From assembly GCF_032854445.1 (NCBI RefSeq), contig NC_088304.1, forward strand, positions 19,231,704-19,295,703: a stretch of DNA of 64,000 nt. Direction: 5' to 3'. The position numbers and the translations under genes are program-made. The number at the start of each line of letters is the position of its first letter. The stretch's first letter is position 1. Under the pieces are notes generated by a model. It had not been told where the DNA came from. It did no database searches and worked only from the letters and a program-made list of their open reading frames with translations. Positions 19,986 to 59,811 of the stretch are shown here, one piece after another. This DNA is from Liolophura sinensis. Lineage: Eukaryota; Mollusca; Polyplacophora; Chitonida; Chitonidae.

Positions 19986-20233
19986 TCATCGCTTCAACAG
20001 TTTTGAATTGTAAAGTTCTGCTTCTTCATCAGATGAGCTAAAATCGCGGTACTCTCGTTCTGCTACATTTTTCGTCTTCCCACCATTCCGAATGATAAAG
20101 TCGTCTGGCTCGTCGTCTTGGTAACCGCCGTTAGGAAGCTGGTGGAAGCCTTGGTTCTTGTAGCGACTCGTGCGTGAGCAGTAATAACAACACAGGATGG
20201 TTACCATGGCGAACACCAGCGCCAGTGCTCCAG
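19986..20233 (-). CDS. CPD: CPD exon 26: membrane span, cytosolic tail, stop
   Basis: It is 248 bp including [21 protein letters not shown] finishes the span. The tail has FHQL, an acidic cluster [11 protein letters not shown] and a C-terminal KLLKR. CPD tails are known to use FxxL and acidic/CK2-type motifs for trans-Golgi retrieval; the EE-x-LY-x-SK ending resembles vertebrate CPD from memory. Confidence 0.94.
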
Positions 20234-23200
20234 CTGCCAATCAAAAGATCAGACAATATTTGTGATGTTCTTTTCATTGGCAATGTCTGCTGTGTCTATG
20301 TTAAAATTTCATCCCCCCCCCCCCCCATTCCCACCAAAAAAAGCACCTTTTTAGAGGCACAAATATACAGGTACTTTTGGACCAGAAACTTACATTTCTC
20401 CAAAATCAAATTACACAAGGTGTATAAATCTCAGTGAAAATTGCACAATTGTTGAGAAATGATGGTGGCAATGGTATACCTGTAAGCATAAGAGCACCAA
20501 TAGAGGGCATCCCGAACAACATCCCTTCCTTCTTGTGGAGGTAGATTGTAACAGGTGTGGACTTGTCAAACACATCTATCACCTGTAGACAGGAACATCG
20601 GATAAACAGGTGAGACCACAGACGTGGAAACGAAGGCTACATACATGCAGTTGTTTGCTTCCATTTGTCAATGTCAACCAGTACCGAGCCCAATACTTTT
20701 ATGAAGAATTCCAAACCAGGGAAGTAAAACCAAGGTTGCCGATTTTAAAGTCGGACATTCTTGAATATCATATCTCTCTGACGCCACGTTACAGAGAAAT
20801 ACAGGAGATCAATTTTATTGAAATTTGAGCCACACACATTAAATGTGTTCTAACATATCAAAAATGCTTCCAACTATATCCTTACTATGGTTCTATAGGT
20901 GTCATGCAACAAAACCTTCTTTCAAACATTCAGCCTATTTAGGCTCAAGACAAGAATGGAGCAGCCATTTAAACTTGTACAAGCAGACTATGTAAGTAAA
21001 CAGTTGTTGTCATGGAAACGAACAGTATGTACCTCTGTGGCAGTAGTAAATCCCTCCTTCTTCACCACTATGGTGTACTTGGCCGGTACCGCATACTGCC
21101 AGAATTCCCCATGAGCCCCCGTCACCTGGACCTTAGAGAACCCGCTCAGGTGAACAGTGGCGCCCTCTATCGGCTGCTTGCTCAATGAGTCTAGTATGTG
21201 GCCCTCCATTGTGTTAGCAGCCTGGAATATTCATGCAAATGGAGCTTTTAGGTTTTGGAAACATGGTTAATTAGCTGCAACACAGCACGAGTTTGTCTGC
21301 GAGTTTGTCTGGCGGGCAAGTTGGTTGGTCAGTTGGTCAGTGGGACAAATTTTTGACATCTTATCTTTCATGTGGACCATTCACTCAACTTTTAAGCCTA
21401 CATGCAACATGACTTCTGTGGGACGTCACAACTATAGCAAATCTTCACTTCACTATTTTGCTTACTTATTTATCTGATTTGAACAAAGGAGCATCTGGAA
21501 TCCTAGTTGTACCACAAAAACATTTCGGCTCCAAAACTCAAATAATTATCAAACTGTAAAGGACAGAATAACAGAAAGAAACCATCAAAATAACAGAACA
21601 AGCAGAATATTCTATACTGATGTTCAAAAGATGGTTTTCACCACAAATTTGAGATATCAAACCATCTCTGAACCTTCATAACCCTGATGTATAATACAGT
21701 TAAGAATTAACTATGGATTTATTTATTTATTTATTTGATTGGTGTTTTAAGCCGTACTCAAGAATATTTCATGCCTATGACGGCAGCCAGCATTATAGTG
21801 GGTGGAAACCCGGCAGAGCCTGAGGGAAACCCACGACCATCCGCAGGTTGCTGTCAGACCTTCCCACTTAAGGCCGGAGAGGAAGCAAGCATGAGCTGGA
21901 CTTGAACTCACAGGGAACCAATCTCTTGGTGAGAGACTCCTTGGTCATTACGCTGCGCTAGCGCGCTAACCAACTGAGCCATGGAGGCCCCTACTATGGA
22001 TTCAAGTCACTAGTGTTACATGTTCTGTAAAATCTTACCTTGTTCACCATGGCAACCAGTGATGGTCTGTTTTCCCTCCACAGGGCTACCAGCTGGTTGC
22101 TGGGCGGTGATTTACAGCAGCCTGTGTACACTGTAATGGCTAACCCAGAGCTGTAGTCCTGACAGAAGTCCTGTGAACAGAGATTGGGTTATTCATATTT
22201 ATTTATTTGACTAGTGTTTTACACCGTACTCAAGAATATTTCACTTATATGACAGCGGCCAGCATTATGGTGGGAGGAAACCGGGCAGAGCCCTAGGGGA
22301 AACCCTCGACCATCCGCAGATTGCTACAGCCAGAGAGGAAGCCAGCATGAGCTGGACTTGAACTTACAGAGAATGCACTGGTAAGAGGCTCCCAGGTCAT
22401 TACGCTATGCTAGCGCGCTAACCAACTGGGCCACGGAGGCCCGGGGTTATTGACATGTTATACCATGTAGCGTAAGGGGAAATAACTGAGTGCTTCAGAA
22501 CTTTCCATAAGACAGCTGCTGTCAAGCTGGCTAGTTCAAACACTGAACGTTACCAAGCTCTACTGTTGCCGCTTGCACAAAGCCATGATTGTTGATTGTA
22601 ACTACCATGGTGACAAATGCGTCATATGATCCACTAGGTCCATGATAGGCTCATATAGATAACAATACACGAACAGCATGTATTGTTCATTCACTTGATA
22701 ACGATGCTAGTATCTGCATCGAAACGTCGTGACAATAAACCAAGAAGTTGTAAATCCATAAGCAATGCCTTGCCTAGTTTACTTCCGTGCCAATTTCTAA
22801 ATGCCACTAAAACACGTGATACATGTACCTCATGCAACAGGAGACTGCTTGGTCACAGAAATATTTATTTATTTCTATTGGTGTTTTTTGATGCACTCAA
22901 TATTTTTTCATTTATAACATGGCGATGAGATCAATTTCTGCAGGAAACCAGTGCCTTTGAAAAGTACACAACAAAGCTCTTGTTTTCAGGTTGATTCTAA
23001 TGTTAATGTTTAATGAAAACACAGCATTTTGAGTAATTCTAGACCAGTAAAATCTAATAAATTAAAACTGACATCACTGCATTTTTTCTGGCTAATCCTT
23101 CATTAGCCATGCTGCTAGGGGGCCTTAGCCATGCTGCTAGGGGGCCTTAGCCATGGTGCCAGGGGGCCTTAGCCATGGTGCCAGGGGGCCTTAGCCATGG

Positions 23201-26200
23201 TGCTAGGGGGCCTTAGCCATGGTGCCAGGGAGTATCAGCCAGGGTGCCAGGGAGCATCAGCCATGGTTCCAGGGAGCATCAGCTATGGTGCCAGGAGGCA
23301 GCCATGGTGCCAGGGGGCAGCCATGGTGCCAGGGGGCCTTAGCCATGGTGCCAGGGGGCCTTAGCCATGGTGCCAGGGGGCCTTAGCCATGGTGCCAGGG
23401 GGCCTTAGCCATGGTGCTAGGGGGCCTTAGCCATGGTGCCAGGGGGCCTTAGCCATGGTGCCAGGGGGCCTTAGCCATGGTGCTAGGGGGCCTTAGCCAT
23501 GGTGCCAGGGAGCATCAGTCAGGGTGCCAGGGAGCCTTAGCCATGGTGCTAGGGGGCCTTAGCCAGGGTGCTAGGAAGCATTAGCCATGGTGCCAGGGAG
23601 CATCAGCCATGGTGCCAGGAGGCAGCCATGGTGCCAGGGGGCATTAGCCATGGTGCTATGGGGCATTAGCCATGGTGCCAGGGAGCATCAGCCATGGTGC
23701 CAGGAGGCAGCCAGGGTGCTAGGGGGCCTTAGCCATGGTGCTAGGGGGCATTAGCCATGGTTCTAGGGGGCATGCAATTTGCTACTATTCATGCATTCAC
23801 ACAACCAGTTTACACAATAAAACCCTAACTGAAATAAATTAACAAGTGACAGTAGTCCACCACTTACAAATGACCATTTGCTAAATATCACACTGTCGTC
23901 ACTGCTTGGGTTTTACTCTCTATGCTGTCAATCTTAAATTAAAACTTGGCCGAACCACCAAAAGCTAAATTTGAACCTGTGACCCACTGGTCAGGGGCAG
24001 ATTAGCCACAAGGAAAACAACACTTTAGTGAAATGAACCAGCACCTGCTTGTGTCCAAAGATAACCTTTAATGTTTTGCTTGCATACTATTCTTCTATCC
24101 TTCTATCTACTGGCTTTTCTGTAATACCAGTAAATACTCACCAACAAACTCCCATCATGGCTGTTGAGATTGGCAGCTAGAGTTATCCCACCTGGATAGT
24201 GCTCACCTAAAACACACAAAGCACAGTAAAATGTCATTAAAATTGTGCAAAATACACATATATTGAACTGTGTCCAATAACTGACAACAACTTTTGCTTT
24301 TTTGGAAAATATTATCTCGTACACACCAAAAAAAAAAAACCATGAAAAAGATTTTATTTTTTGTGATTTTCAGAACATCAAATACAAACAGAACCCTGGA
24401 CATGAATGTTATGAATGTTCAGGAATCATGACTGATAATATTGGACAAAGTCATTTGAAACAAAACAAGTAACTCAATCATTTAAGTTACTTGTAAAATT
24501 GATACCATTAGAATAAAATAGTCCAATTTTTTTTTTAAATTACAAGAAAATAAAACTAAATTTCTTGAACAGTTTTGTCTGATCTGCTTGAGGAGAACTT
24601 TGTATAATGAGCTTTCTTATCCTATTAGACTGACTCATGAGTTTGAGGTCGCATGTTGTCGTTGTTTTTGCTTTGACAGTTGCATGAAAAAAAGATCGCA
24701 TAGACTTAGTCTGTGCGGCTAGTCTTTTGTGGGTGGACTGACACTTCCTCCTCAGCTGACCTGAACTAGGCATGCTGTTGGCAATGGTCTAACCTTCAGG
24801 TTTAATTGTTGTGAAAACTTGTCAGTTGCAAATGTTTCCAATTTTATAGTCACTCTTATTTGGAGGGGAGAAAAGTCTTCCTGCAATCTGAAGCGTTGTT
24901 TAGTTAATATGATACCCCAAGCCGATGAAACTACATGTATGTACACAATTATTATTTTATTATTTGGCTGAAAAGGACAGCAAATGAAATAAAATGTTTT
25001 TTGTTTTTTCTTTGAAGCAGGGTGCGCAGACTTCACAGAGGTATGGCGGACCTCCTACTAGGCATGGCGCTGCGACACGCGATAAACTGCTAACAAGGGG
25101 TGTGTACTGCAAGGCCATACCTGTCTTCTGGCAGTCAGCTCTGAGTCCCTGTTGTACAGATAGCGTGTTGTTATAGATCTGAGCCAGTTCCTTCAGGGTG
25201 GAGCGTTCAGACTCCTCCAGAATGCCTGTAACATCAAGTGAACAGTTTTATACACACTGTACAACATCAAATGAACCGTTTATACATTTTGTACAACATT
25301 CTAGTGAGCTGTTGGCAAACACTAAACAACATAAAGGGAACAGTTTGTACACACTGTACAACATCAAGATACAGTTAGTACTCACCAACAGCACCAGCCT
25401 TGGTGTAGGGCCACGCCACTACACGGTGACCTCCCCTCAACTCCACGGTGAGGGTCAAAGGTCGTTTACGTATGAAGTCAGAGAGTGCTTTTACTTCAGG
25501 CTCAGGACGACCACTTCTGTTTACAGAATGACCTGTGAATTTATGTAAAATGACATTCAGCATGTATACATTTCATTTCATCAAATTTATGAATGGCAAC
25601 ACTGTTGTGTAAAATATAGATGAAGACATTCTGAAAATCATTATGCAGGGCCACTATAGATACACAGTTACCATAGTTACCAATCAATGTACAGACTTAT
25701 CCTAATTATTTTCATTTTTAGCAAAGAATCACATTTCTCTCCCACTTTTTTGGAACTGTACAGATATAATATGTTGTCCATCATATATAGAATAATCATG
25801 TGAAATATATTCCTGCTATAATTAAAATGTGTATTGGCTAGGCCAGGTGTCTCAAAAAATAGAATAATTGGAGCATTCCGGCTGTGCTTCAATACTAAAA
25901 TCTACATGACATGTAGGTGCCTGGAAATTTATAAATTTATTTCACTTTTTAAATTAAAACACATTTCCATAGACCAATTACATGACAATCACATCACTTA
26001 TAAATTATAAGCTGGCTCCATTTTAGATTCATTCCTTTGACTGGAGACTGAACAGTTGGTGAGCTTACTTTCAAAATTAGTGTCCAGATCCACCAGGTTA
26101 CTGTTCAGTTCTCCCTCTTTAGCGTCACATTGTTCATTAGTCGCCATGGCAACCCCATCAGGATTAAGCACAGGAAGTATAAGGATCCTGACAGACTTCA

Positions 26201-29200
26201 ACATCTGAAAGATGACATTTAAATCAGGTGTGTCAATCCCTTGTAAAACAAGTGACAATCCTTGTAAAATTTATTTATTTATTGATTGGTGTTTTATGCC
26301 ATACTCAGGAATATTGCAGTCACACGACGGCAGCCAGCATTATGGTGGGAGGAAAGCGGCTCACCCAAGGCCAATCCTTATAACAGGCAGTGTGAAAAGC
26401 TATGTGGAGCTGAATTGAAGCATGTGGTCACCACTGGTTGCTGGCTTGCACAGCACTTTGGTTGCTGGCTTGCACAGCACTTTGGTTGCTGGCTTGCACA
26501 GCACTTTGGTGGCTGGCTTGCACAGCACTTTGGTTGCTGGCTTGCACAGCTCTTTGGTTGCTGGCATGCACAGCACTTTGGTTGCTGGCTTGCACACCAC
26601 TTTAGCCACTCAGCGAGTAAGGGCAATTTGGCTTATAAAACCTATAGCAAAACATTACCAATCAAACAGTTTCTTTTTTTTTTTTCATCACTTCTGTCCA
26701 TAAGTAATAAAAGTTAAGAATAAAGGCCCTAAAACTTCACTGCATGTCCGCATCAGTCTGTGCACTTGGCATACCTTAACAGGTAAAGCTATATATCCCC
26801 GAAGGTTTGCTTACACAACACATGTTCTGAACTGGTTTGAGCCTTCTGAATAATAGCCAGTCAAAGCCCACAACAGAAGAACAGGGGACATAATTTTGTT
26901 GAAAACAACCATAACAGCCCAAAACTCCAACTTGACCTGTATTTGGCAATTTGGTCTATATATTTTATTATTTATCTGATTGGTGTTTTACACAACCTTG
27001 TCATACTGAAATCATGTACCAAGTTTCTGCTGTGATACAATGTACCATTATTTATTTATCTGATTGGTGTTTTACACAGCCTTGTCATACTGAAATCTTG
27101 TACCAAGTTTTTGCTGTGATACAATGTACCATTATTTATTTATCTGATTGGTGTTTTACACAGCCTTGTCATACTGAAATCTTGTACCAAGTTTTTGCTG
27201 TGATACAATGTACCATTATTTATTTATCTGACTGGTGTTTTACACAGCCTTGTCATACTGAAATCTTGTACCAAGTTTTTGCTGTGATACAATGTACCAT
27301 TATTTATTTATCTGATTGGTGTTTTACACAGCCTTGTCATACTGAAATCATGTACCAAGTTTTTGCTGTGATACAATGTACCATTATTTATTTATCTAAT
27401 TGGTGTTTTACACAACTTTGTCATACTGAAATCATGTACCAAGTTTCTGCTGTGATACAATGTACCATTATTTATTTATCTGATTGGTGTTTTACACAGC
27501 CTTGTCATACTGAAATCTTGTACCAAGTTTTTGCTGTGATACAATGTACCATTATTTATTTATCTGATTGGTGTTTTACACAACCTTGTCATACTGAAAT
27601 CTTGTACCAAGTTTTTGCTGTGATACAATGTACCATTATTTATCTATCTGATTGGTGTTTTACACAGCCTTGTCATACTGAAATCTTGTACCAAGTTTTT
27701 GCTGTGATACAATGTACCATTATTTATTTATCTGACTGGTGTTTTACACAGCCTTGTCATACTGAAATCATGTACCAAGTTTTTGCTGTGATACAATGTA
27801 CCATTATTTATTTATCTGATTGGTGTTTTACACAGCCTTGTCATACTGAAATCATGTACCAAGTTTTTGCTGTGATAAAATGTACCATTATTTATTTATC
27901 TGATTGGTGTTTTACACAACCTTGTCATACTGAAATCATGTACCAAGTTTTTGCTGTGATACAGTATACATATACTGTGTCTTCTTGTGGCAGGGTGAGT
28001 CCATGCCCCTAAAGTGCTGCAGTCACTAAAGCATCATGCCAAAGACACCAGACGTAACACCCCTCCTAGTCACGTTATACTGACAATGGGCCAACTAATC
28101 ATGTTTCCTTGTTCTAACCTCTCACTGCTGAGCTATAAGCGGGGCAGCAGCAAGTACCATTTTTAAAGTCTTTGAAGTCTTTAAAGACCCAGAAAACAGT
28201 TATGACATATGGATGAGATACTAGACTACACACACTTAACTTTTCTAATGGTCTTATGAGACTTAAAATCCTCAGTTAAAAGGACAACAATACAATACAT
28301 CAAATACAGTGTCCTCACCTCTGACGTCTTATAGTCATCTTTGTTTTCACACAAGTGCTTCAAGAACTCAATCAACAGCTCTTTGCCGATGCCTTCATTA
28401 CCATGGATACTAGCCACAAAGAGAATCTCTGGTTTGGGCTTCTGATCAGCTAACTTCACATCATCACTGACCTCAACTACATAGAGTTTCTTCCCTTGGG
28501 CAGACTCTCCAATGCTGAAGGTAAAATTGTTCCTCATTAAGACTTTTCAAAAGAAAATGTCCTTTCACTTCCGATTCTAAATACTTGATCTCTGGTTTGA
28601 TCGAGTTTGATTTCTAACCTAACCGGCATGAATGAATGGATGAATGAATGAATGAATGAGTGCAACTTTACTGTAAGAGCCAGTAACTCTGTCAAAGTGT
28701 ACAATTTCTCTAGCAATACATATCTGAGCCAAATATTATACAATTGCACTTCTAAAATATGAAGACATCAATGATACATCACAATAAACATCAGCTGTTA
28801 TCATTAAAATTTGTGGTAATTATGCTGATTTGAGGGTGATTTTGTTGAACATTTTTAATTTTTACGACTACAAAATCCACGCTGAAGCTGTTCAACAGAA
28901 GTCCCTAGCCACATTTCTGCCAAACTTCCACCATGATGAACATCTTATAATATTTCTCATGTTTACCTGATCAGTTTAGCTACAGAGCTGTGTTTCTGCG
29001 TGACGTCTTTGAGCAATGTCTCCACCTGCCCGTAACTGTGGTAGGACAGATTAGAAACTTCCTGCTGTAGCTTAGCCATGATCTTTGACCTTCCACCTTT
29101 CCGCACTTCACCTCTGAGGGTCATGCTCTCATAACCTGGACCAAACACAGAAATTTGAAAATTATTAACACCAGTTTATGTCAGCTTCATGAAAGCAATG

Positions 29201-50200: not shown

Positions 50201-53200
50201 CAGTCCTTCAAAGTCTAGGTGTGTCAGAAAAACATATATGACAAAAGCAACGTATGTTTGGGGAGGAAGAATCTAGGTGCACAAATCCACCTCCTGGTCT
50301 TCAAAAAGTGGTGTGACAAGCACACAGCTGTTCAAAGACGAAAGGCCTGATGTGGTAGCCCATTTCCATAGACCATCTGATCATCGGAAATGTTTTAATT
50401 ACTGATTCAAACATGCCTTAATGAAGTGGTTTATTACAACTCAAGGGCCACTTTCACAAAACTCTGATATAAGTCATATTTCTCGTAGCTTATTTTTCGT
50501 GAAAGATGTGGTTCAGGTTATAGTGCCATAAAGTGATCCCGTTTACGAGAAAAGCTAGGAAAAACTGATTTACGAAGCTTTGTGAAAGCGGCCCTAAGGC
50601 CTATATGTGAAATTCACCCACACGTGTCACAAGATTCAACTGTCTCCAAGAGCCAGACAGGTCATCCATTCATACACCTGTGTTATCATCCTTACCTTAA
50701 TGAAATCCGTTGTATAAATGTCATCAAGTTTTATAAAGTGTACTTAAGTGAAGGTGATAGCAGAGAAAGGGCTAAAAGGATCAATAAATTCAATAACATG
50801 CCCACCAAACAGGTTTTTTCTACGACTATACATGTACATTCTGATATACACTATATATATACAGTACAGCCTCCCGCCTGTGCTGAGTTTGCCCACAAAA
50901 CAAATGTGCATTTTCACAGTATGCTACTTGTACATCTAATGGGTCATACTGGTGCCTTAAGACATAAAATGTGTTTTTACTTTCTCATTAAATACATTTC
51001 CTCACAGAAATCGAAACTGGATTCAACCTTGATGTACCATGTACAGATTCAATGATTAAAGAAAACTACATGTATACCTGTAAATACACCTTAGGTGTAC
51101 CAGTGTTTTTAATTTAAACATTACTATTTTTAATTTATATAATTTTGCTTAATTTTTTTTTATTTATATTTAATTCTGTATTTTTTGTAAATACATGTGT
51201 GTTCCAGGATTTATTTCGATATAAATGCATGTAATATGTTTTGTTTCTGTTTATGTAATTTTCCTCAATTTTCCCTTCTTCTGTTTTGTTTTCATGTATG
51301 CATAATTTTGCATGAAAATTTTGCTCTGCTCCTTTCATATACATGTATTCTATACCTGCATCAGTGCTTTAAATGCATGTTTTCTTTTTGTTTATACAAT
51401 TTTGTCTAATTTTCTTCCCCATTTATATCTAATTTTGCTGTTCTTTTTTTTTTTGCAATATACAGTACTTTTTCACAGAGTGAAATGTGTTCTAATGTTG
51501 GAGGGTTCAGGTGGGCACTGAGTTCACTGTTAGATGTACCATTTAGGGGGCAAACATTGACATTCTGTTGTGTATTTGTGGACATAGTGGCCTGAACTGC
51601 TCAGGAAACCTGCCAGATAAAGATTAGCAAGAACTGTAGATATCTGGCATGGACATAGAGATTAAACAGCCAGCCCAGGCTTGATCAAAGGAGCTTCGGC
51701 AAACTCTCAAGGACAGCGTTGGATTGAAAATTCTTAACTTTAAGAATCTACGCTACGCCTACACATAACTGTACACAGCCAAACGAGGACCAATCATGCC
51801 AGGAAGTACAACGTCCTCAAATTTTTTCAACGGCTAAGTTACCCATTTTTCTTGATTCTGAGAGTTCTTTTGATCTTAGACCTGGAAAGTGTTTTTATTT
51901 TTATTATTTACATTTTTTTGACAGCCACATGGTTATATTCTACTGAAAAATTTAAAGCTCGTTCCAGAGACATTTTATCACTTACAATGTAAGGTGCTAA
52001 AAATGTACTTTTTCTGGTTAATTTTCAGGGCAAATATTAAGTTGAAGATCAAAATGTGTTTTGAGCGCTTCATAAAATGTAGGAAGTATGTCCACAAAGA
52101 CAATGGCATTCGGTGCTATGCTTTAGGAATACAGTGTCTATCAATAAGAATACTGAGTAAACCAGGACGTCTTCTGGGTAACTAATGGGTAGCAGAGGGG
52201 TAGCAGCTAACCCAGTCAGCCATGTCTTGATCAAAGAAATCTAGGTAAACAGTTCAGGACACATTCTTTGTTGGGATCAACTCCAGACATAAGCATTTCA
52301 CCTCGACTCAATAAACCAGGCTTAACTGGCCACACAAAAGCATCAGCCAAAACCCTTACGCAGCTGTTTCTGGAAGGCTCTTGGATTTTCTAATCACTGT
52401 ATTTGGACTGGGCTTCAGACTCCTGGAATGTTCTACGAATAGGTCAGTTTTGATGCCCTCAAAGCCCGATGACTACACGGAGTTACATTTGGGGGTCAAA
52501 ACTATCCTATTCTATAAAGATACAATGTATTTTATATTTCGTTTTCATTTAGGTTTAAGCGTGAAGTGAAAAGTATTTCACTTAATATTCGAGAACAATC
52601 AGGTTTATGAGTGGAGGACGGCAGAGAGAATTTGGACAAAACAACAGGTTTTCGTCAAGTGCATCATGCACAATGTACCTGACAAACTTAGGAGCAACAG
52701 CCCTAAAAGCTCCCTCTGAGCATTCGAGGCTAATACATTACAGCTGATTCAGTCTTTGACAGCCATAGAAATACAAAATAATACTAATAATATATTCATC
52801 ATACTAGTCATGTTTTCATTTTAGACTAAAAGTGTAATGCTCTGAGGAATTAACTGTGCTATACAAAATCCAACAAACAATCCTGTTTTTTGGCCATAAA
52901 GTGGATATATACAGCGATCTACAATGTAATATTGACTTATTTTCCTGTTCTAAAAAAGCAACTGTATACAATACTTCAATTTCATGTATTGCTACAGAAG
53001 GCCTCTGACAAAAGTTAATTATTTCATTTATTCTTATTCATGCAGGGCCATTTTGAGTATAAATACCAAACACGATCAAATATATGTATGAGATCACAAA
53101 TAAAAAAAAAATACAGAAAGAGAAAACAAAAACTGTCAAAAAACAAGAATAGTTACAATTCATGCTGAAAAGCACATCTGTTCACGACAGTTAAAAATTG

Positions 53201-56200
53201 TTTTCATCCAGAACATGTTTTTTCATGCTAGAATGTTCACTGAGCTGGCAGAAGATCCACTGATATTTTCAGGTTATCTGTAAATTTTTACAAACAACAA
53301 GGACGTGTACAATGTAGTAGCAATCATGTCAATCATATGTTTTTGCTTCAAAAGAAAGGCTGCAATTCCTGCAGGGAAATCAGACTGACAGCTATCTGAT
53401 TATTCATAACTAACAGCAAACATGAAAAGTCAAAAAAGAAGAAAAGTGAAAATAAAATACCATTTTAAAATAAAAAAAATATGGTATAATTTGTAAGACA
53501 AATTCATAATTTAGACAAATTTTAGAAACCATGTCCCAAATTTCATCTGGCACACAAGTCAACATGTACTTGTGACATTACATCTATAGTGTAGGTACAG
53601 GTCCAACCACACATCTTCTGCTTAGACCCAACAAGCACTCAAAAAAAGTCTGACCTGCTTCTTACTTTGAACTGAGTAACAAGATTATCAGATATTCTTT
53701 TTATTTCCTAAATATATAAAATATTGTTCCTTTTCAAGTGGATCTGTTTTGCAAAAGTAAAAAGCAAAGCCTCCATCCTGTATTGTTTTCCTTCGTCCAA
53801 AAAGAAAGAGTTCATCAGGGAAACTCCCATGATCTGACCTCTAAGCAACAATCTTCTAGTTCTTGTTATACTTAACAAACATCACAAAACAAATACATGT
53901 CGAATCCTCATTATGCAAGACAAGGCCACAAGGATTGAAATGTCTGCCAGTGGCAACAATTCGGCAAGGACTTTCATCTACCTTATCTTCCACCAGCCAA
54001 GAACTTTTTTATTATTAATGAAATAAAATGTTCTCTGTTCTGAGAGGCATGAAAACAGAAGTTGGAAAGTGGTAGTGATTTAAAACGATCCTTACGAATA
54101 ATAAATTAAGCACAACATTTTGGTATATACATGTATGTAAAACACCTGTAAATGCAGTAATACAAAGTTTGCCGTTTCAATCTTGTGTCACATTTCACAA
54201 CTGTATTTATACACGTAGTTACTATATCATTGACCATAATTTACTAACAAACTCAGAAGTTTTTATCCATAAGACTCTTGTTAATGTATTATTATTTATC
54301 AGGAGATAAAAATGACTCATTCACAGCATTTTCACCATTCTTTATTTGCCTTATGATATCCAAAGTGTTCCTCATCATAACACCAAAAACTGACAGCGAT
54401 CAATACACATGTACTTCTGTGTCAGTTCTCCAAGTTAAATATTTTCTTACTAAATAAATACACAGTAAAGTACACTGCAATTTTTTTTCTTCTATTTTTA
54501 CCTTCAACTACAAAACTAATGATATCTTTAGCAAACAACCTTAGATTCAAACAATCTGAGCTGATCCTGTTTAAATTTCTGCTATTTTTTTATAAATTCA
54601 TGTTCAACCTCAATTTGACCTCTGCCTGTGTTTTTGTCAACCAACATGTGGCTAAATTGAGAACTGTCACTTGGTTAGTACCAAATTCATGGTTGTCAAA
54701 ATGTTATGCAGATCAGCATTAAACTAAAACCACCCACAGCAGCAGTATGTCCCTGTATGTCAATACTGGCAACAGAGTTTATGTGAAAATCTTTATTCAT
54801 TCATTATTTATGAATGAACATGCTGGCTACCGGGGTTGATTAAAATCTAAGAATACTGTATATCACACACAAAGGAATGAAATACATTAACGTCATTGCT
54901 TTTATTCAACTAGGTTTTCATCAGCAAGTAATCAACACAAATGAGCGCAGAACCCATTTTAGCAAGTAATGACATACATGAGCCATGGGTCATTCACGTC
55001 CATGTATTCGTACAGTGCATTTTTTGAACCTGCATTACGACAGCCAATGTCCTTGAGTTTCCAACTCTATCAAATGATTACGCCACCATATATAAACCAC
55101 AGTGTATAATTACTTACCAAAGTTGTAAAAGAATTTTATTGTGGCAAGGAAAATTCTGAAATGTAGTTTAACACAAGATCTTATATAGGTTTTTTACAGG
55201 TACTTCGTATTAACTCTGTTTTTTGTGCCCACAAAAAGCAGATGTTTATACAAAGTACATGTTGTTCTCTGGCAAATGACCAAAATCAATGGTGCAAACA
55301 CACACACATCTTTATCGGCACCTGGAAATAAAACTTCTGTTAAAAAAAAAAGCCTGTTATACAGAGAACCCAGGTGTACCTATTTACATATCACAAGTGA
55401 ATGTTTAGAAGACCCCACTTGGCATCTCTGGATTTCAAACGGAGATAGAATTCATCCAGAGAACTGATACAAAGCGAATACACACAGGCAGTACACAAAA
55501 CTCCCCGAGGCTTTGATCAAAGAATTTAATATCATGTCGACGGGATCTCATCAGTTGGCATGTCAATTTTTTTATAAATTTGGCACATGCTGATGAAAGC
55601 AAACTGGCAAATTTAATACAGCGAGAATAACAATTCATGTCTGAGCTTACTGTTTACATTCCATGATTTTGCCACATTTTTGAAGCAACAGTTTGCATCA
55701 TTCACAAACAATGAGGAAGCTGATCTGTAACAGGCATGTTTAGAATCCATGACTGCTACACAGTAACGCTACAGAAATCAACACGCCATAACAACAAATC
55801 TAAATACTAAGAAAGAAACACAATTAAAAGATAGGGATTTGCAAAATATGAGACAGGCTGAAGAGAAAACAGTTAAACATGTGCAAATCCATGCATGCCA
55901 TAGCTTGAAGTTGTTGAGTTGCAAACCATTGAAAAAACACATTATGCTAAACTAGTTTTTGATATACCAGAAGATTTGTTCCTTTGTTTTGTTGAGGGTA
56001 AATTTCTTTTCTGGCTGATAATGTGATACACATGTGATTACTATGTACATGGACTTATATAATACAGATACAACTTTATGTACACACATAAATATATATT
56101 TCAGCTTTCCAAAAACCATACAAGTGTGCCCTTTGACCATATGAATGTTTTGGTTATAATATTACAGCAGGGTGTCTTTCTAGCAGCTATCTTAGTCCTA

Positions 56201-59200
56201 ATGCTGGCATGGGTACTGACTACTCATTGAAACCACCATGAGAGGATTTCCTTGTAGCACCTGCATGTACCTTAGTCCTAATGCTAACAGGGGTAATCTT
56301 TGAAACCACCATGCTGCAGACACGAATTCTATATTACCTCACTCAAACACCATGCTGCAGAAACCAATTGGGAGTGGGAGGAAACTGTGCAGAGCCCGGA
56401 GGAAACCCATGACCATCTGCACGTTGCTTACAGAACTTCCCACGTACAGCCGGAGAGGAAGCAAGCATAAGCCGGACTTGAACTCACAGCGACTGCATTG
56501 GTGAGAGACTCCTGGGTCATTACGCTGCGCTAGCGCGCTAACCAACTGAGCCACGGAGGTCCCCCAGGGCACTTTGTGTACAGGCTGATACATACAACAT
56601 GTACATGTATGGGGCTTTCTTGGTGCTTGCTGAATTCTTGTGGCTGGAAATGCCTTTCACTCAGCATAAAGTTCTATTCCGCTACATGTACAGTCATAAC
56701 AGGGTATGCACTAGCCCAGCTGGCCAAGTCTCTACATTGTATACAGCCAAGCTCTAGTCTCAGACAACAAAACAACGTCTGCCATGTTTTAGATTGAAAT
56801 TTCCAGCCTTGTCAGAAGCCCAAATCTAAAACATGGGGAGTGTTTGTTTAAATTCTTGATTCAAAAGTTTTAAGGCTTGGATTGTGGTACATGTACATGT
56901 AGAAGAGGGTTTACCAGTGATTGTTTTAGGACCAAATTGCCTAGGGATTCACATTGTACTAAACATCAGAACAGGCTCAAGTTATAAAGATAAGAACAAT
57001 TTTCTGCAGGTGGTAAATTGGACCAGAAACCAGCTCTAAGTAAAGCTGAGACCATACTAGGTTATGTACCATGTACACGCAGTCAATAACTTTAAATTTT
57101 GCCCCAAAAAGTGCACTTTTAGACAAGTAAATATCATAAAATATTACCTTTCATGTTTAAAAGACATGTAATTTACATTCCTTCTGCAGGACATCATTCT
57201 ACCCTACGAACAAACTTCAAAAACATCTTTCTGTGATCAACAGAACTCTCAGAATCAGGCAAAGTTTGCAATTTATTCTGGGTAAATTTTATGTCATTTA
57301 TCGTCATATGCACAGATTGACCTCATAGATTGACCTCTACTGTCCGATGTCAGTGTAATCCACTGTTCTAGAACACAGCTCAGCTTACACCATTGATCTT
57401 ACTCATCACATTTGACCTCCTGTTTTATATCCTGTCACCAGAGTAAGCTAGCCTTTGATTGGTGACGCACTTCCTCAACTGACCAATACATGATTTGCTT
57501 ACATGTACACACTGTATTTGACAGGTTGGTATTTGTTGCTTATGCTTAGGGTGGCTAACGTTATGTCTTGTCAAACTTTGCTTACGTCTATATGTACTTG
57601 GCACTGACAGCTCTTCTGAAAGTTTGTAAACATTTACCTTAAGATCTATATTTATTCTTAGATCAGCTGAATGAAGGTATGATTTACTCTGCACACTGAA
57701 CAGTTTAAATACTGACATTTTAATATATACATTTAAATCTAAAAAAATGAACACATATACAAACATGTGTATTGATTTTTTATCTTGGTCACCATATTAT
57801 CAGTCTTATCAAAATGCCTACGTATGTGCAAGTATGTCTTTTAGCCAATGCTAGGTTCCATGGTCTAGATGATGTTTAAGTCAGAATCTCACATTTAATG
57901 CTTATAGTGACAACGAATGTCATTACGGTATTACAAAAACAAAGCAAATTTATGCCATACTCAAGAATATTCCACTCATACGATGGCGGCCAGCATTATG
58001 GTGGAATGTAAGCGGGAACAGCCCGGGGGTAACCCACAACCATCTGCAGGTTGCCGCCAGACCTTCCCATTGATGACCATGTACATGTAGTAAAACTTGT
58101 TGCCAATGTGGTGAGAATAAGAAATGATGATGAGAAGGTAAATGTACATAAAGGCTTTTTAGCTCTATCTCCCCACTGGTTTACCACTACCACACTTGTC
58201 AGCTTCTAGCAATGCCGTACCATTCACCAATTTAGCATTAAGTAATGGAGACACCCTAACACATATATTTTCATATGAAATCAAAGCCAAGTTCTACAGC
58301 TTGTCGACAAGTACGGAAACTATAAGGGTTATTATACAACTGGTATTTGAATTGCTCAAAAAGGGGGCTGAACTCAAAACTTTTAAGCTCAATAATAAAA
58401 GGATGACATTGTATATGAATGTAGAGAGGCTTTCAATATGACTGTCACTATCACCTGAGGTGGAAAATTTCCAATGGATTGCTAAACTTTCCTTTTCCTT
58501 AATCTAACTGTTTTGCAACGGGAGCTGCTTAACAGAGTTTATACTACCAATAGCTAGTGGGAATATCCCTTTAGCTCAGTTGGCAGACTACTGGACTTCA
58601 GCTGCTGGGACCCGAGTTCGAATCCTGGTGTGACCCATGTAGTGAAATCCTTAAACCATTTCACTGGTGCCGTGACCAAAATGGTTCCATGAAGCATAGG
58701 GCTCTGGGTCTGTGGACATGGGTGTATTTTGGAAGACAGAAAGGATTTAAGCAGGGAGAAGTGTAACTGAAGCAGTTTTCCAGTGCTTATACTAGCAGTA
58801 GCTTGAGGGAATTTCCCTTTGGCTGAGTTAGTGGAGAGCTGCACTTCAGCTGTTGAGACCAGAGTTCGAATCCTGGTGTGACCCACAAAGTGAAATCCTT
58901 CAACCATTATGGTTTAATCAATAGTTATGACACACATATTTATATACATGTATAACACAAAAGACATGATCGCATACATTACCTGGTACGTCATACCAAT
59001 CTGCTCCGTTCGTAATTCCGCCTGGAAAGTCATCATCTTTGCACACTGTACCCGTAAACATGGTGCGATGGTTCGTGGCATACGTCCTCGCCAGAAGCTT
59101 AAACACCTTGTCGTCCGGCGCTGAACTGTACACACCATCCTGAATGTGCTTGGCTGAATCATCAAACGGGTAACTAGCAACCACACTTCCGCCGTGTAAA

Positions 59201-59811
59201 TTAGCAGAGAGGACAAACTTGTTAGACTGAATCCAGTCTATCATGGCTTGAGTTTCTGGCTGGATTGGAAGGTTATAACTCGGCACTTGAAACTGATCTG
59301 GAAAATTGCGATTCAGATCAACCTGTTTGCTGTTGCCTCGTCCGACCGACCCGAAACAACTGTGTTCCTTAGCAGTTTCGAATCCATCTGGGTTCATAGA
59401 GGGCATAATAAATATGTTCGTGGTATCCACAATATGGGTAACTCTTTCGTCCTTTCCGTAATTTGACAACAAGTACTGCGCCAAATAAACCAGCATTTGT
59501 CTGCCCACAGCTTCATTTCCATGCATATTCCCGACATATTTAAACATCGGTTCACCAGGTTCCACGGAATCAACCCGGTCTGATATTTGTAAAGCCCAAA
59601 GTTCTCGGTCATATAAACTCTTCCCTACCGAATGGAGACGTGCTAACTCCGGGTAGCGAACTGTCAAACCTTGGAAAAGCGCCGTTAAATTACCATGATG
59701 CGTGTATTTCGAGAAGTCTATACCTTCATCGCCCTCTTGTATCACAGTTGAAGTCGAAGGACAACACAGGAGAAAAGTAATGGCTAAAAGTATGTGTAGT
59801 TTCTCGGCCAT
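19986..59811 (-). CDS. CPD: Carboxypeptidase D, four-domain type, complete, 26 exons
   Basis: Twenty-six exons join in frame on the minus strand into 1695 codons plus TGA; each boundary is GT-AG and every phase matches. Layout: signal peptide about 1-22; CP unit 1 (35-324) with transthyretin-like fold (325-405); CP2 (466-766) with TTL (767-845); CP3 (848-1147) with TTL (1148-1215); CP4 (1220-1516) with TTL (1517-1599); membrane span about 1604-1632; cytosolic tail 1633-1695. Units 1 and 2 have [16 protein letters not shown] and the catalytic Glu in EITLEL/EITIEL. In unit 3 all are replaced. Unit 4 keeps only HGNE. Known CPD is a trans-Golgi metallocarboxypeptidase that removes C-terminal Lys/Arg after furin-type cleavage. 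Vertebrate and fly CPD have three units; from memory a four-unit form is known in Aplysia. Start choice: ATG at 59811 has A at -3 and G at +4 and leads into a clear signal peptide. Confidence 0.95.
20307..20327. repeat. Poly(C) tract
   Basis: CCCCCCCC-rich run in the last CPD intron. Confidence 0.85.
20480..20582 (-). CDS. CPD: CPD exon 25: TTL 4 end and start of membrane span
   Basis: It is 103 bp, phase 0 to 1. [10 protein letters not shown] ends the lumenal part; [10 protein letters not shown] opens the membrane segment. Confidence 0.93.
21033..21221 (-). CDS. CPD: CPD exon 24: transthyretin-like domain 4
   Basis: It is 189 bp, phase 0 to 0. [19 protein letters not shown] and [19 protein letters not shown] are a TTL domain. 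Confidence 0.94.
21720..21992 (-). mobile_element. tRNA-headed SINE, full length
   Basis: 10-bp duplication ACTATGGATT at 21710-21719 and 21993-22002. In CPD intron 23, 37 bp from exon 23. Confidence 0.92.
22039..22170 (-). CDS. CPD: CPD exon 23: end of CP unit 4
   Basis: It is 132 bp, phase 0 to 0. [18 protein letters not shown] aligns with [13 protein letters not shown]; the catalytic Glu is Tyr. Confidence 0.94.
22194..22443 (-). mobile_element. tRNA-headed SINE, full length
   Basis: 8-bp duplication GGGTTATT at 22186-22193 and 22444-22451. In CPD intron 22, just upstream of exon 23; it lies within 25 bp of the acceptor. Confidence 0.9.
22563..22650 (-). mobile_element. Palindromic element, family C, copy 2 (degenerate)
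   Basis: Contains GCCGCTTGCACAAAG and TGTAACTACCATGGTGACA, both shared with family C. Confidence 0.45.
22860..22945 (-). mobile_element. SINE tail fragment, degenerate
   Basis: TTTATTTCTATTGGTGTTTT and a following ATTTTTTCATTTATAACATGGCG resemble the family 3' end. Confidence 0.5.
23104..23772 (-). repeat. 22-bp G-rich minisatellite, about 30 copies
   Basis: Unit CCATGGTGCCAGGGGGCCTTAG with variants GGGAGCATCAG and GGAGGCAG. In CPD intron 22. Many GGGGG runs on the plus strand. Confidence 0.93.
24142..24206 (-). CDS. CPD: CPD exon 22: CP unit 4 short exon
   Basis: It is 65 bp, phase 1 to 0. [19 protein letters not shown] corresponds to [16 protein letters not shown] of unit 1. Confidence 0.9.
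24207..25120 (-). other. CPD intron 21, nothing seen
   Basis: No repeat or exon recognised. Confidence 0.5.
25121..25225 (-). CDS. CPD: CPD exon 21: CP unit 4 helix
   Basis: It is 105 bp, phase 1 to 1. [19 protein letters not shown] matches the PDDxxFxxLAxxYA helix of other units. Confidence 0.92.
25386..25532 (-). CDS. CPD: CPD exon 20: CP unit 4, third zinc ligand lost
   Basis: It is 147 bp, phase 1 to 1. [17 protein letters not shown] and [16 protein letters not shown] align with [15 protein letters not shown]; the His is Arg. Confidence 0.94.
26069..26204 (-). CDS. CPD: CPD exon 19: CP unit 4, altered substrate site
   Basis: It is 136 bp, phase 0 to 1. [12 protein letters not shown] is normal, but VDLDTNFES stands for VDLNRNFPD, so the Asn/Arg pair is Asp/Thr. 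Confidence 0.94.
26268..26371 (-). mobile_element. SINE 3' fragment with target duplication
   Basis: 12-bp duplication with one mismatch (CAATCCTTGTAA / CAATCCTTATAA) at 26256-26267 and 26372-26383. In CPD intron 18. Confidence 0.8.
26437..26605 (-). repeat. 24-bp minisatellite, 7 copies
   Basis: Unit GTTGCTGGCTTGCACAGCAC plus TTTG. Keeps frames open on both strands. Confidence 0.92.
26960..27968 (-). repeat. 84-bp minisatellite, 12 copies, containing a SINE-tail sequence
   Basis: Units begin at about 26977 and every 84 bp to 27901. Each includes TTATTTATCTGATTGGTGTT, the 3' end of the main SINE read in reverse, then CTTGTCATACTGAAATC. The 353-codon plus-strand frame is a repeat read-through: 84 is a multiple of three and the translation repeats every 28 residues. 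Confidence 0.95.
27970..28190 (-). mobile_element. Second SINE family, copy 1
   Basis: Read on the minus strand it carries CTGGTGTCTTTGGCATGAT, GCAGCACTTT and GGACTCACCCTGCCACA, all shared with 61960-62325. It abuts the 84-bp array. Confidence 0.75.
28319..28514 (-). CDS. CPD: CPD exon 18: CP unit 4 with HGNE
   Basis: It is 196 bp, phase 2 to 0. [17 protein letters not shown] and [16 protein letters not shown] follow the family; the HxxE zinc pair is intact here. Confidence 0.95.
28627..28660. repeat. (GAAT)n microsatellite
   Basis: Tetranucleotide run in CPD intron 17. Confidence 0.9.
28967..29135 (-). CDS. CPD: CPD exon 17: end of TTL 3 and start of CP unit 4
   Basis: It is 169 bp, phase 1 to 2. 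[15 protein letters not shown] ends TTL 3; [19 protein letters not shown] begins the CP fold. Confidence 0.94.
29136..29729 (-). other. CPD intron 16, left part, nothing seen
   Basis: No exon or repeat recognised. Confidence 0.45.
29730..29937 (-). mobile_element. tRNA-like SINE head, third type
   Basis: On the minus strand GGATGTAGCTCAATGAGTA (box A-like) is followed by GGGTTCAGTCCCAGC (box B). It lacks a convincing full cloverleaf, so a SINE head rather than a tRNA gene. Confidence 0.5.
30004..30159 (-). CDS. CPD: CPD exon 16: transthyretin-like domain 3
   Basis: It is 156 bp, phase 1 to 1. [18 protein letters not shown] and [19 protein letters not shown] are a TTL sandwich. Confidence 0.94.
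30715..30823 (-). CDS. CPD: CPD exon 15: end of CP unit 3
   Basis: It is 109 bp, phase 0 to 1. [11 protein letters not shown] stands where active units have [12 protein letters not shown], so the catalytic Glu is His. Confidence 0.93.
30824..31748 (-). other. CPD intron 14, nothing seen
   Basis: AT-rich intron without recognised elements. Confidence 0.45.
31749..31983 (-). CDS. CPD: CPD exon 14: CP unit 3 variable region
   Basis: It is 235 bp, phase 2 to 0. It encodes an acidic segment ([12 protein letters not shown]), then [18 protein letters not shown], which resembles the [17 protein letters not shown] block of unit 1 at [14 protein letters not shown]. Confidence 0.92.
32195..34268 (-). 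repeat. 130-bp satellite-like array, 16 copies
   Basis: Units start TGTGAGTTCAATAATCAG near 32195, 32324, 32451 and then about every 130 bp to 34139. Divergence between copies is low. It fills most of CPD intron 13 and ends about 230 bp from exon 13. Each unit has AGGTAGGACGTGACCTCTAA. Confidence 0.96.
34501..34589 (-). CDS. CPD: CPD exon 13: CP unit 3, lost third zinc ligand
   Basis: It is 89 bp, phase 0 to 2. [15 protein letters not shown] aligns with [14 protein letters not shown], with Glu in place of the zinc-binding His. Confidence 0.9.
34874..35094 (+). mobile_element. MITE-like element, family A, copy 2
   Basis: 21-bp inverted ends with 2 mismatches: AATTCCTCAACCTTTTCGCA at 34881 and the matching arm at 35069-35089. 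Interior shared with 14266-14486. About 220 bp, no coding capacity. In CPD intron 12. Confidence 0.8.
35257..35432 (+). repeat. 20-bp minisatellite, about 9 copies
   Basis: Unit CTTACRCYGATACCATACTC; alternating variants of the CACCAAT and CGCTGAT type. Confidence 0.88.
35466..35720 (-). mobile_element. tRNA-headed SINE, head truncated
   Basis: 9-bp duplication AGAAATGTA at 35457-35465 and 35721-35729. It ends 75 bp from exon 12. Confidence 0.82.
35795..35958 (-). CDS. CPD: CPD exon 12: CP unit 3, degenerate
   Basis: It is 164 bp, phase 1 to 0. [17 protein letters not shown] replaces the usual [11 protein letters not shown] block, and no NRNF motif follows. Confidence 0.92.
36010..36850 (-). 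repeat. 52-bp minisatellite, about 16 copies
   Basis: Unit CAGACATGCATCCTACAGC, then TTGGAGCTAAGTATAGAGGC and ACTCTCTCAATTT. It begins about 50 bp upstream of the exon 12 acceptor, in CPD intron 11. Confidence 0.95.
36940..37082 (-). mobile_element. SINE, 5'-truncated
   Basis: Tail and body to CCTTCCCACATACGGC; no clear duplication. Confidence 0.85.
37597..37973 (-). CDS. CPD: CPD exon 11: end of TTL 2 and start of CP unit 3
   Basis: It is 377 bp, phase 2 to 1. [15 protein letters not shown] aligns with the active MHGNEAVG block but has Tyr for His and Gln for Glu. The chosen donor GTGTGC keeps frame with exon 12 (RHLVRGYKSD); a nearby GTAAGA would not. Confidence 0.9.
38043..38059. repeat. 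Poly(G) tract
   Basis: A run of about 15 G in CPD intron 10. Confidence 0.85.
38148..38192 (+). mobile_element. Family C core fragment, copy 3
   Basis: TGATCGTAACTACCATGGTG is close to the reverse complement of the interior of 8908-9005. Confidence 0.4.
38210..38456 (+). mobile_element. tRNA-headed SINE, full length, sense orientation
   Basis: GGGGCCTCCGTGGCTCAG head with a small deletion, body and tail. Imperfect duplication ATTGTTAATGGG / ATTGTTATGGGG. Confidence 0.88.
38584..38753 (-). CDS. CPD: CPD exon 10: transthyretin-like domain 2
   Basis: It is 170 bp, phase 0 to 2. [17 protein letters not shown] and [19 protein letters not shown] are closely similar to exon 3. Confidence 0.96.
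38935..39522 (-). repeat. 28-bp minisatellite, about 21 copies
   Basis: Unit CTTGTGTGGCTTCCCTCAGC plus TATCTGTG. In CPD intron 9. Long plus-strand frames here are read-throughs. Confidence 0.95.
39530..40258 (-). other. Rest of CPD intron 9, nothing seen
   Basis: No exon or repeat recognised. Confidence 0.45.
40259..40401 (-). CDS. CPD: CPD exon 9: end of CP unit 2
   Basis: It is 143 bp, phase 1 to 0. [19 protein letters not shown] carries catalytic Glu737. It is the paralogue of exon 2. Confidence 0.96.
40565..40703 (+). mobile_element. SINE, 5'-truncated, with target duplication
   Basis: 12-bp duplication TATAGTAACCAT at 40553-40564 and 40704-40715; the head is absent. Confidence 0.93.
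41145..41247 (-). CDS. CPD: CPD exon 8: CP unit 2 lid region
   Basis: It is 103 bp, phase 0 to 1. [12 protein letters not shown] and [16 protein letters not shown] match the segment before the catalytic Glu. Confidence 0.95.
41390..41662 (-). mobile_element. tRNA-headed SINE, diverged
   Basis: Near full length with many substitutions; flanks AAAGCAATAATTT / AAAGCAAATTAAT are a likely decayed duplication. In CPD intron 7. Confidence 0.82.
42081..42364 (-). CDS. CPD: CPD exon 7: CP unit 2 core
   Basis: It is 284 bp, phase 1 to 0. It contains [13 protein letters not shown] (Asn607, Arg608) and [18 protein letters not shown] (zinc ligand His646). Confidence 0.96.
42595..42800 (-). mobile_element. 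SINE, strongly diverged
   Basis: ATTATTTCACTCATACGATAG, CCAGCATTACGGTGGGAGG and AAGCCAGTATGAGCTC mark an old copy. Confidence 0.75.
42836..42873 (+). repeat. G-rich tract, possible quadruplex
   Basis: Runs of 5-12 G separated by single T (GGGGGTGGGGG pattern) in CPD intron 6. Confidence 0.85.
43075..43172 (-). mobile_element. tRNA-like SINE head, fourth type
   Basis: On the minus strand GCAGGCTCAGATGGATAAAG (box A-like) and ACGTTCAAATTCTAC (box B-like). Confidence 0.45.
43447..43638 (-). CDS. CPD: CPD exon 6: CP unit 2 zinc motif
   Basis: It is 192 bp, phase 1 to 1. [12 protein letters not shown] gives zinc ligands His537 and Glu540; [13 protein letters not shown] follows. Confidence 0.96.
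43690..43930 (-). mobile_element. tRNA-headed SINE, head truncated
   Basis: Good body; stops in the head at CATCACGCTG. In CPD intron 5. Confidence 0.88.
44284..44362 (-). mobile_element. SINE tail fragment
   Basis: TTTATTTGACTGGTGTTTTA and TCAAGAATATTTCACTTA only; short flanking CATTCTA on both sides. It lies within 40 bp of the exon 5 donor. Confidence 0.75.
44400..44713 (-). CDS. CPD: CPD exon 5: linker and start of CP unit 2
   Basis: It is 314 bp, phase 2 to 1. A Ser/Thr-rich linker is followed by [18 protein letters not shown] and [18 protein letters not shown], the N-terminal CP fold. Confidence 0.95.
44789..44822 (-). repeat. C-rich tract
   Basis: CCCCCTCCCCGTCCCC pattern just upstream of the exon 5 acceptor. 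Confidence 0.85.
45259..45378 (-). CDS. CPD: CPD exon 4: end of TTL 1 and linker
   Basis: It is 120 bp, phase 2 to 2. It encodes [15 protein letters not shown] and [12 protein letters not shown], the last TTL strands, then a polar linker. Confidence 0.94.
45612..46255 (-). repeat. 27-bp minisatellite, about 23 copies
   Basis: Unit CCACTCACATTACTGTCAAC plus TCCTCAT, broken once at 45850-45895. Fills most of CPD intron 3. The 250-codon plus-strand frame is a read-through. Confidence 0.95.
46365..46534 (-). CDS. CPD: CPD exon 3: transthyretin-like domain 1
   Basis: It is 170 bp, phase 0 to 2. [17 protein letters not shown] through [19 protein letters not shown] is the typical TTL beta-sandwich of M14B carboxypeptidases. 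Same length and phase as exon 10. Confidence 0.96.
46615..46830 (-). mobile_element. SINE, diverged
   Basis: TTTATTTGATTG, TACTCAAAAATATTTTTACT and AAACTCACAGCAACCGCATT survive. In CPD intron 2, ending about 15 bp from exon 2. Confidence 0.75.
46845..46987 (-). CDS. CPD: CPD exon 2: end of CP unit 1
   Basis: It is 143 bp, phase 1 to 0, residues 278-324. [19 protein letters not shown] carries the catalytic Glu295. It lies 12 kb from exon 1 and is the same length and phase as exon 9. Confidence 0.96.
48222..48640 (-). repeat. 72-bp minisatellite, 6 copies
   Basis: Unit starts GATGGTACAGTTATGGTCCT at 48226 and every 72 bp. Open frames on both strands are read-throughs. Confidence 0.94.
49882..50150 (-). 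mobile_element. tRNA-headed SINE, full length
   Basis: 12-bp duplication CACGTCTTGGAT at 49870-49881 and 50151-50162. Confidence 0.93.
50444..50595 (+). mobile_element. MITE-like element, family B, copy 3
   Basis: The clearest copy: AGGGCCACTTTCACAAAACT at the left and AGCTTTGTGAAAGCGGCCCT at the right, inverted with few mismatches; 152 bp, no coding capacity. Confidence 0.8.
50596..56367 (-). other. CPD intron 1 interior, no element recognised
   Basis: AT-rich single-copy-looking sequence. A 157-codon frame at 50582-51055 starts within the MITE and has no recognisable domain. Confidence 0.45.
56368..56563 (-). mobile_element. tRNA-headed SINE, 3' part lost
   Basis: Complete head and front of the body; the tail side is missing, which is unusual in this window, where most copies lose the head. 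Confidence 0.85.
57950..58075 (-). mobile_element. SINE body fragment
   Basis: CTCAAGAATATTCCACTC, GCGGCCAGCATTATGGTGG and CAGGTTGCCGCCAGACC; both ends are lost. Confidence 0.82.
58537..58907 (+). repeat. Two copies of a tRNA-like repeat, offset 247 bp
   Basis: Copies at 58537-58660 and 58784-58907. Each has box A (TTTAGCTCAGTTGGC / TTTGGCTGAGTTAGT) and box B (GAGTTCGAATCCTGG), then GTGAAATCCTT. T-stem pairing is imperfect, so these look like SINE heads, not tRNA genes. Confidence 0.65.
58983..59811 (-). CDS. CPD: CPD exon 1: signal peptide and most of CP unit 1
   Basis: It is 829 bp and ends in phase 1 at donor GTAATG. It encodes residues 1-277 in one piece: hydrophobic leader [13 protein letters not shown], zinc ligands His97 and Glu100 (MHGNEAVGR), substrate residues Asn167/Arg168 (DLNRNFPD), and zinc ligand His206 ([11 protein letters not shown]). 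Confidence 0.96.

Follow-up and report, generated by a model that had tools for sequence, protein, structure and literature searches.

How many carboxypeptidase units can a carboxypeptidase D (CPD) gene carry, and what becomes of those that lack a catalytic set? As far as it is described in PMC5683605, CPD has three units in mammals, birds and the fly, which agrees with the three modules that the first-pass annotation of this locus gave for vertebrate CPD and Drosophila silver. The three-site form has been described as highly conserved, down to choanoflagellates (PMC6850559). The locus considered here lies in a stretch of 64,000 nucleotides from the chiton Liolophura sinensis (hereafter the window), for which that annotation had proposed a single gene with four modules, each consisting of a CP and a TTL domain. 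We rebuilt the gene model, scored each unit, and compared the units with known CPD domains and with each other.

From tblastn anchors and three-frame reading, the CPD gene was placed on the minus strand in 26 exons, the first beginning at 59811 and the last ending at 19986. Each of the 25 introns has GT-AG borders, and the phases are consistent across the whole model. The spliced coding sequence is 5046 nucleotides including the stop and encodes 1681 residues, with the terminal stop as the only one. The proposal of 26 exons in one unbroken frame is borne out by these borders, phases and single stop. The proposed product length of 1695 residues is close to that of our model; no splice choices giving 1695 were found. 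At the exon 4/5 junction there are two GT-AG alternatives, one equal in length and the other longer by two residues.

Exon 1 (58983..59811, minus strand, as are all features of the gene below) carries the start codon, a hydrophobic N-terminus as read from the translation, and the greater part of the unit 1 CP domain as matched by Pfam, including the HGNE, NPDG, DLNRNF and LHGG motifs. Intron 1 (46988..58982) spans 11,995 bases. The fly CPD gene has alternative first exons; in intron 1, a tblastn search found no second exon-1-like sequence (best E 2.9). Exons 2-4 (45299..46987) encode the end of CP domain 1, with GMQDYNY and with ELSC bearing Glu270, followed by TTL domain 1 (Pfam). CP domain 1 is for the most part contained in one exon, after which comes the 12 kb intron; the CP domains of units 2-4 are split by several introns. 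Exons 5-10 and the start of exon 11 (37907..44711) encode a Ser/Thr-rich linker and unit 2, in which Pfam matched an active-looking CP domain and a TTL domain.

Exon 11 (37597..37973) is a single uninterrupted exon whose translation runs from the last part of TTL 2 into the beginning of unit 3. Unit 3 (29068..37906) occupies the remainder of exon 11, exons 12-16 and the start of exon 17, and consists of a CP domain that keeps only Tyr248 together with TTL 3. Similarly, the translation of exon 17 (28967..29135) passes without interruption from the last part of TTL 3 into the beginning of unit 4. Unit 4 (20480..29067) takes up the remainder of exon 17 and exons 18-25 and consists of a CP domain, in which His69 and Glu72 are kept alongside R145T, H196R, Y248Q and E270Y, and TTL 4. 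The 3' end of exon 25, within the unit 4 span of 20480..29067, falls inside the membrane segment.

The least certain exon of the model is exon 13 (34501..34589), which was located by a phase-constrained scan. Because exon 12 leaves in phase 0 and exon 14 enters in phase 2, an exon is needed between them unless exon 12 uses another donor. The scan gave 28 open candidates of 70-229 bases that enter in phase 0 and leave in phase 2, and a crude splice score put the chosen exon at the top. In an ungapped comparison with units 1, 2 and 4 it came second to a piece that stops interrupt.

To score the domains, the product was given to Pfam as four pieces. Units 1 to 4 matched Peptidase_M14 with E-values of 2e-76, 8.9e-84, 7.5e-17 and 1.5e-44, and CarboxypepD_reg with E-values of 1.4e-15, 8.8e-16, 1e-9 and 2.2e-9, respectively. 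All eight matches exceed the curated cut-offs. An NCBIfam search with unit 1 gave one match, far below its cut-off. Seven active domains, taken as rows from the joint alignment A1, were also made into a profile, against which unit 3 reached 144.5 bits and unit 4 reached 227.9 bits; the best score among 1000 shuffled copies (500 per unit) was 4.2 bits. Additionally, hhalign aligned unit 3 with A2, an alignment of four closer rows, over 294 columns at 99.7% probability. With both Pfam domains above cut-off in every unit and exons 11 and 17 bridging the units, the four proposed CP+TTL modules stand. A stop between units, which the first-pass annotation had named as evidence against its reading, was not found: exon 11 joins units 2 and 3, and exon 17 joins units 3 and 4. 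Since each of these exons bridges two units, units 2-4 belong to one gene however the splice sites are chosen. Between units 1 and 2 the only link is by splicing, through exons 4 and 5.

Catalytic residues were tabulated from A1, which has nine rows, with bovine numbering that we placed ourselves on the HGNE, DLNRNF, NLHGGS, NYL and IELGC motifs. Units 1 and 2 contain all seven residues: H69, E72, N144, R145, H196, Y248 and E270. At column 127, unit 2 has R, and unit 1 has N where the PDB chains 9j6z and 3mn8 have D. At positions 69/72/144/145/196/248/270, unit 3 reads Y, Q, D, F, E, Y and H, so that only Tyr248 is kept (1/7), with the partners around 145 and 196 depending on the alignment. 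At the same positions unit 4 reads H, E, D, T, R, Q and Y and keeps only His69 and Glu72 (2/7). Of the three zinc ligands, unit 3 keeps none and unit 4 keeps two. The division into two active-looking and two pseudo-enzymatic units thus holds, and a four-unit CPD-type gene in which units 3 and 4 lack the catalytic set is confirmed at the level of sequence. Directed loss of the catalytic residues was considered as well and set aside, as their loss was not significantly stronger than that of other invariant columns (p 0.25 per unit; pooled 0.09).

Units 1 and 2 are close to known CPD domains. The best PDB match of unit 2 was duck gp180 residues 503-882 (E 4.8e-162), and its identity to duck gp180 domain II is 61.5%. 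The best match of unit 1 was 9j6z, a chain named carboxypeptidase D in the PDB (E 4.7e-122; 53.2% identity), which we take to be CPD domain I, just as we take 3mn8 to be domain I of fly CPD. A 20-row tree was built without units 3 and 4, from units 1 and 2, five PDB chains and 13 of 80 bacterial loci, the latter hand-picked for spread with none dropped for stops. In this tree unit 1 clusters with 9j6z and 3mn8 (91/98) and unit 2 with duck domain II (93/89), a grouping with known CPD domains I and II. Support for unit 2 with duck domain II falls to 72/40 in the 22-row tree that includes units 3 and 4. In that tree the end branches of units 3 and 4 are saturated, at 6.56 and 4.12 changes per column respectively, and we therefore did not use their placement. 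The AU test rejected trees in which the four units form a clade apart from the 18 other rows (p 0.0004), and did not reject a clade of units 1 and 3 (p 0.095).

Intron positions offer a further comparison. Three introns of unit 1 recur in unit 2 at identical position and phase; one of the three, near the CP/TTL border, is also present in unit 4. Unit 3 has no intron that exactly matches one of another unit; one of its introns lies at the codon aligned with an intron of units 1 and 2, one base off.

If units 3 and 4 were functionless sequence in decay, open merely by chance, the loss of most of their catalytic residues and their very long end branches would be readily explained. However, the 15 exons that carry these units (exons 11 to 25) contain neither a stop nor a frameshift, and columns that are invariant among the seven active domains are kept above the variable ones. 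Unit 3 keeps 32/81 invariant and 47/269 variable columns (p 7e-5), and unit 4 keeps 44/81 and 50/282 (p 3e-10). Because such a contrast would also persist from past constraint, it is support rather than proof against decay, which we regard as very improbable. We give even less credence to the reading that an active two-unit CPD and a pseudo-CPD are encoded by separate genes that only look joined. Only splicing joins units 1 and 2, and the introns reach 11,995 bases and contain minisatellites, all of which would suit such a reading; nevertheless, no stop interrupts exon 11 where TTL 2 gives way to unit 3, or exon 17 where TTL 3 gives way to unit 4.

A slim chance, though the largest we allow to any of these alternatives, goes to unit 3 having been copied recently, within this lineage, from unit 2 or unit 4. 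A clade of units 3 and 4 was not rejected by the AU test (p 0.193), and a BLASTP alignment of the two covers 314 columns at 21% (E 1e-15). Against a recent copy, the clade of units 2 and 3 was weakly rejected (p 0.038), and identity on A1 is 22.6% between units 2 and 3 and only 18.7% between units 3 and 4, the lowest value in the nine-row table. Given this low identity of units 3 and 4 and the lack of an exact common intron, there is no sign of recent duplication. By these comparisons, units 3 and 4 are homologous yet distinct domains.

We favor instead a four-unit CPD with two distinct inactive units, and the next question is which of units 3 and 4 corresponds to the third domain of other CPDs. 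For human CPD-III, the residues listed in PMC11266112 are H69, A72, Q127, T145, D196 and Y270. Unit 4 agrees at three of these six positions (H69, T145 and Y270); at the other three it has E72, R127 and R196 where the human domain has A, Q and D, respectively. Unit 3 agrees at none of the six. In the residues listed by the same source, T145 does not appear for other M14 pseudo-enzymes, and Y270 is also found in AEBP1 and CPXM2 (PMC11266112). Additionally, unit 4 adjoins the membrane segment. Because unit 4 has half of the listed CPD-III residues and the membrane-proximal place, and unit 3 has none of these residues, unit 4 is probably the domain III counterpart and unit 3 the additional unit. 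A clade joining units 2 and 4 to duck domain II was not rejected by the AU test (p 0.585; the held tree was 1.33 log units better). Among the PDB matches listed for units 1-4, which for one search extend only to 1e-30, no chain of a CPD-III catalytic domain was recognised.

The C-terminus is that expected of CPD, with a predicted membrane segment followed by a cytosolic tail. The hydropathy peak is a 19-residue window starting at residue 1596. Exon 26 (19986..20233) encodes the remaining part of the membrane segment and a tail of 63 residues (20177 to 19986 including the stop), which contains SDEEA-ELY. The human CPD tail is described as 60 residues long and as binding the Golgi tether TBC1D23 via EEETLY (PMC11093223). 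We searched the chiton tail for the TBC1D23-binding acidic TLY motif, defined as at least three acidic residues out of five followed by [TS][LIV][YFW]. The strict motif is absent from the tail, which has ELY and not TLY: the acidic cluster, L and Y are kept and the T/S is replaced with E.

Taken together, it is highly probable that this is a carboxypeptidase D gene whose product would be a type I membrane protein, with units 1 and 2 as active-looking domains I and II, unit 4 as the probable domain III, and one more module in the form of unit 3. As in vertebrate CPD/gp180, CP+TTL units stand in tandem, the first two have the catalytic set, the membrane-proximal unit lacks it, there is one hydrophobic segment, and the tail resembles that of vertebrates in its length and in the acidic cluster ahead of LY. 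In contrast to vertebrate CPD/gp180, the chiton product has four units rather than three, with the extra pseudo-unit between domains II and III; unlike human CPD-III, unit 4 has E72 and R127; and the tail has ELY where human CPD has TLY. Drosophila CPD (silver) also has tandem CP units, with domains I and II active and III inactive according to PMC5683605, but it has three units where the chiton gene has four. AEBP1, CPXM1 and CPXM2 likewise have a catalytically substituted CP domain, and the Y270 listed for AEBP1 and CPXM2 is that of unit 4; unlike the four-unit CPD, however, these proteins are described as having one CP unit and a discoidin domain (PMC11266112).

We take the three-unit count to describe the CPD forms that have been studied and not to define CPD; if it were defining, the product would be a CPD-like protein and not CPD. 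A CPD cloned from Aplysia in 1999 reportedly has four CP-like domains, the first two of them active. In the literature we searched, including works that name both carboxypeptidase D and Aplysia, no description of a four-domain CPD was found. Most likely the chiton gene is an ordinary CPD with four units like the one reported for Aplysia and, apart from the comparison that its two inactive units offer, an unexceptional gene.

If expressed as modelled, and by analogy with other CPDs, units 1 and 2 would act in the secretory and endocytic pathway, removing C-terminal Lys and Arg from peptides that have undergone furin-type cleavage. Unit 1 might have a pH optimum near neutral and unit 2 a mildly acidic one, by analogy with human, duck and fly CPD as described in PMC5683605. 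Unit 4, adjacent to the membrane, would be the counterpart of the vertebrate pseudo-domain III. Domain III is characterized as inactive and of unknown function (PMC5683605); in the work reviewed in PMC11266112, preS binding by duck CPD was abolished only by deletion of domain III, and fly viability was reduced without it. Unit 3, lying between domains II and III and without all three usual zinc ligands, would by the same analogy most likely serve as a binding or spacing module. More tentatively, and with somewhat less than even confidence, we suggest that unit 3 may be an old, separately derived pseudo-carboxypeptidase, distinct from the vertebrate domain III and retained in this lineage as a dedicated binding surface, in which case the two non-catalytic modules would have different ligands. 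A CPD with two inactive units, one domain III-like in its residues and the other not, would offer a comparative handle on the ligands of these units.

Relatives of the units were also sought among microbes and viruses. A bacterial search with A2 matched 168 stretches, of which 118 were relatives and 80 were kept. The kept loci match CPD unit 2 across CP and TTL at 39 to 51% identity, and several of the best are from Neomarinimicrobiota. With unit 2 alone as the query, none of 11 pattern matches in bacteria was a relative. In viral contigs, A2 found one relative (27%) and unit 4 found none; in phages, exon 1 found one record (25%).

Lastly, the window contains repeats of several kinds; ARAGORN and Rfam (at gathering scores) reported nothing in it. 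Five large minisatellite arrays of about 12 to 24 copies lie in introns of the gene, at 26968-27963 (84-base unit, intron 18), 32195-34268 (130, intron 13), 36012-36848 (52, intron 11), 38927-39515 (28, intron 9) and 45619-46243 (27, intron 3). Further arrays are found in introns 1, 12, 18 and 22. A dispersed SINE-like repeat gave 16 pattern hits over the window, for example at 1244 (+), 3887 (-), 19104 (+), 36942 (+) and 40688 (-). The repeat reads as one or the other of two 11-letter peptides in overlapping frames on both strands, and some of the hits are one copy read in two frames.
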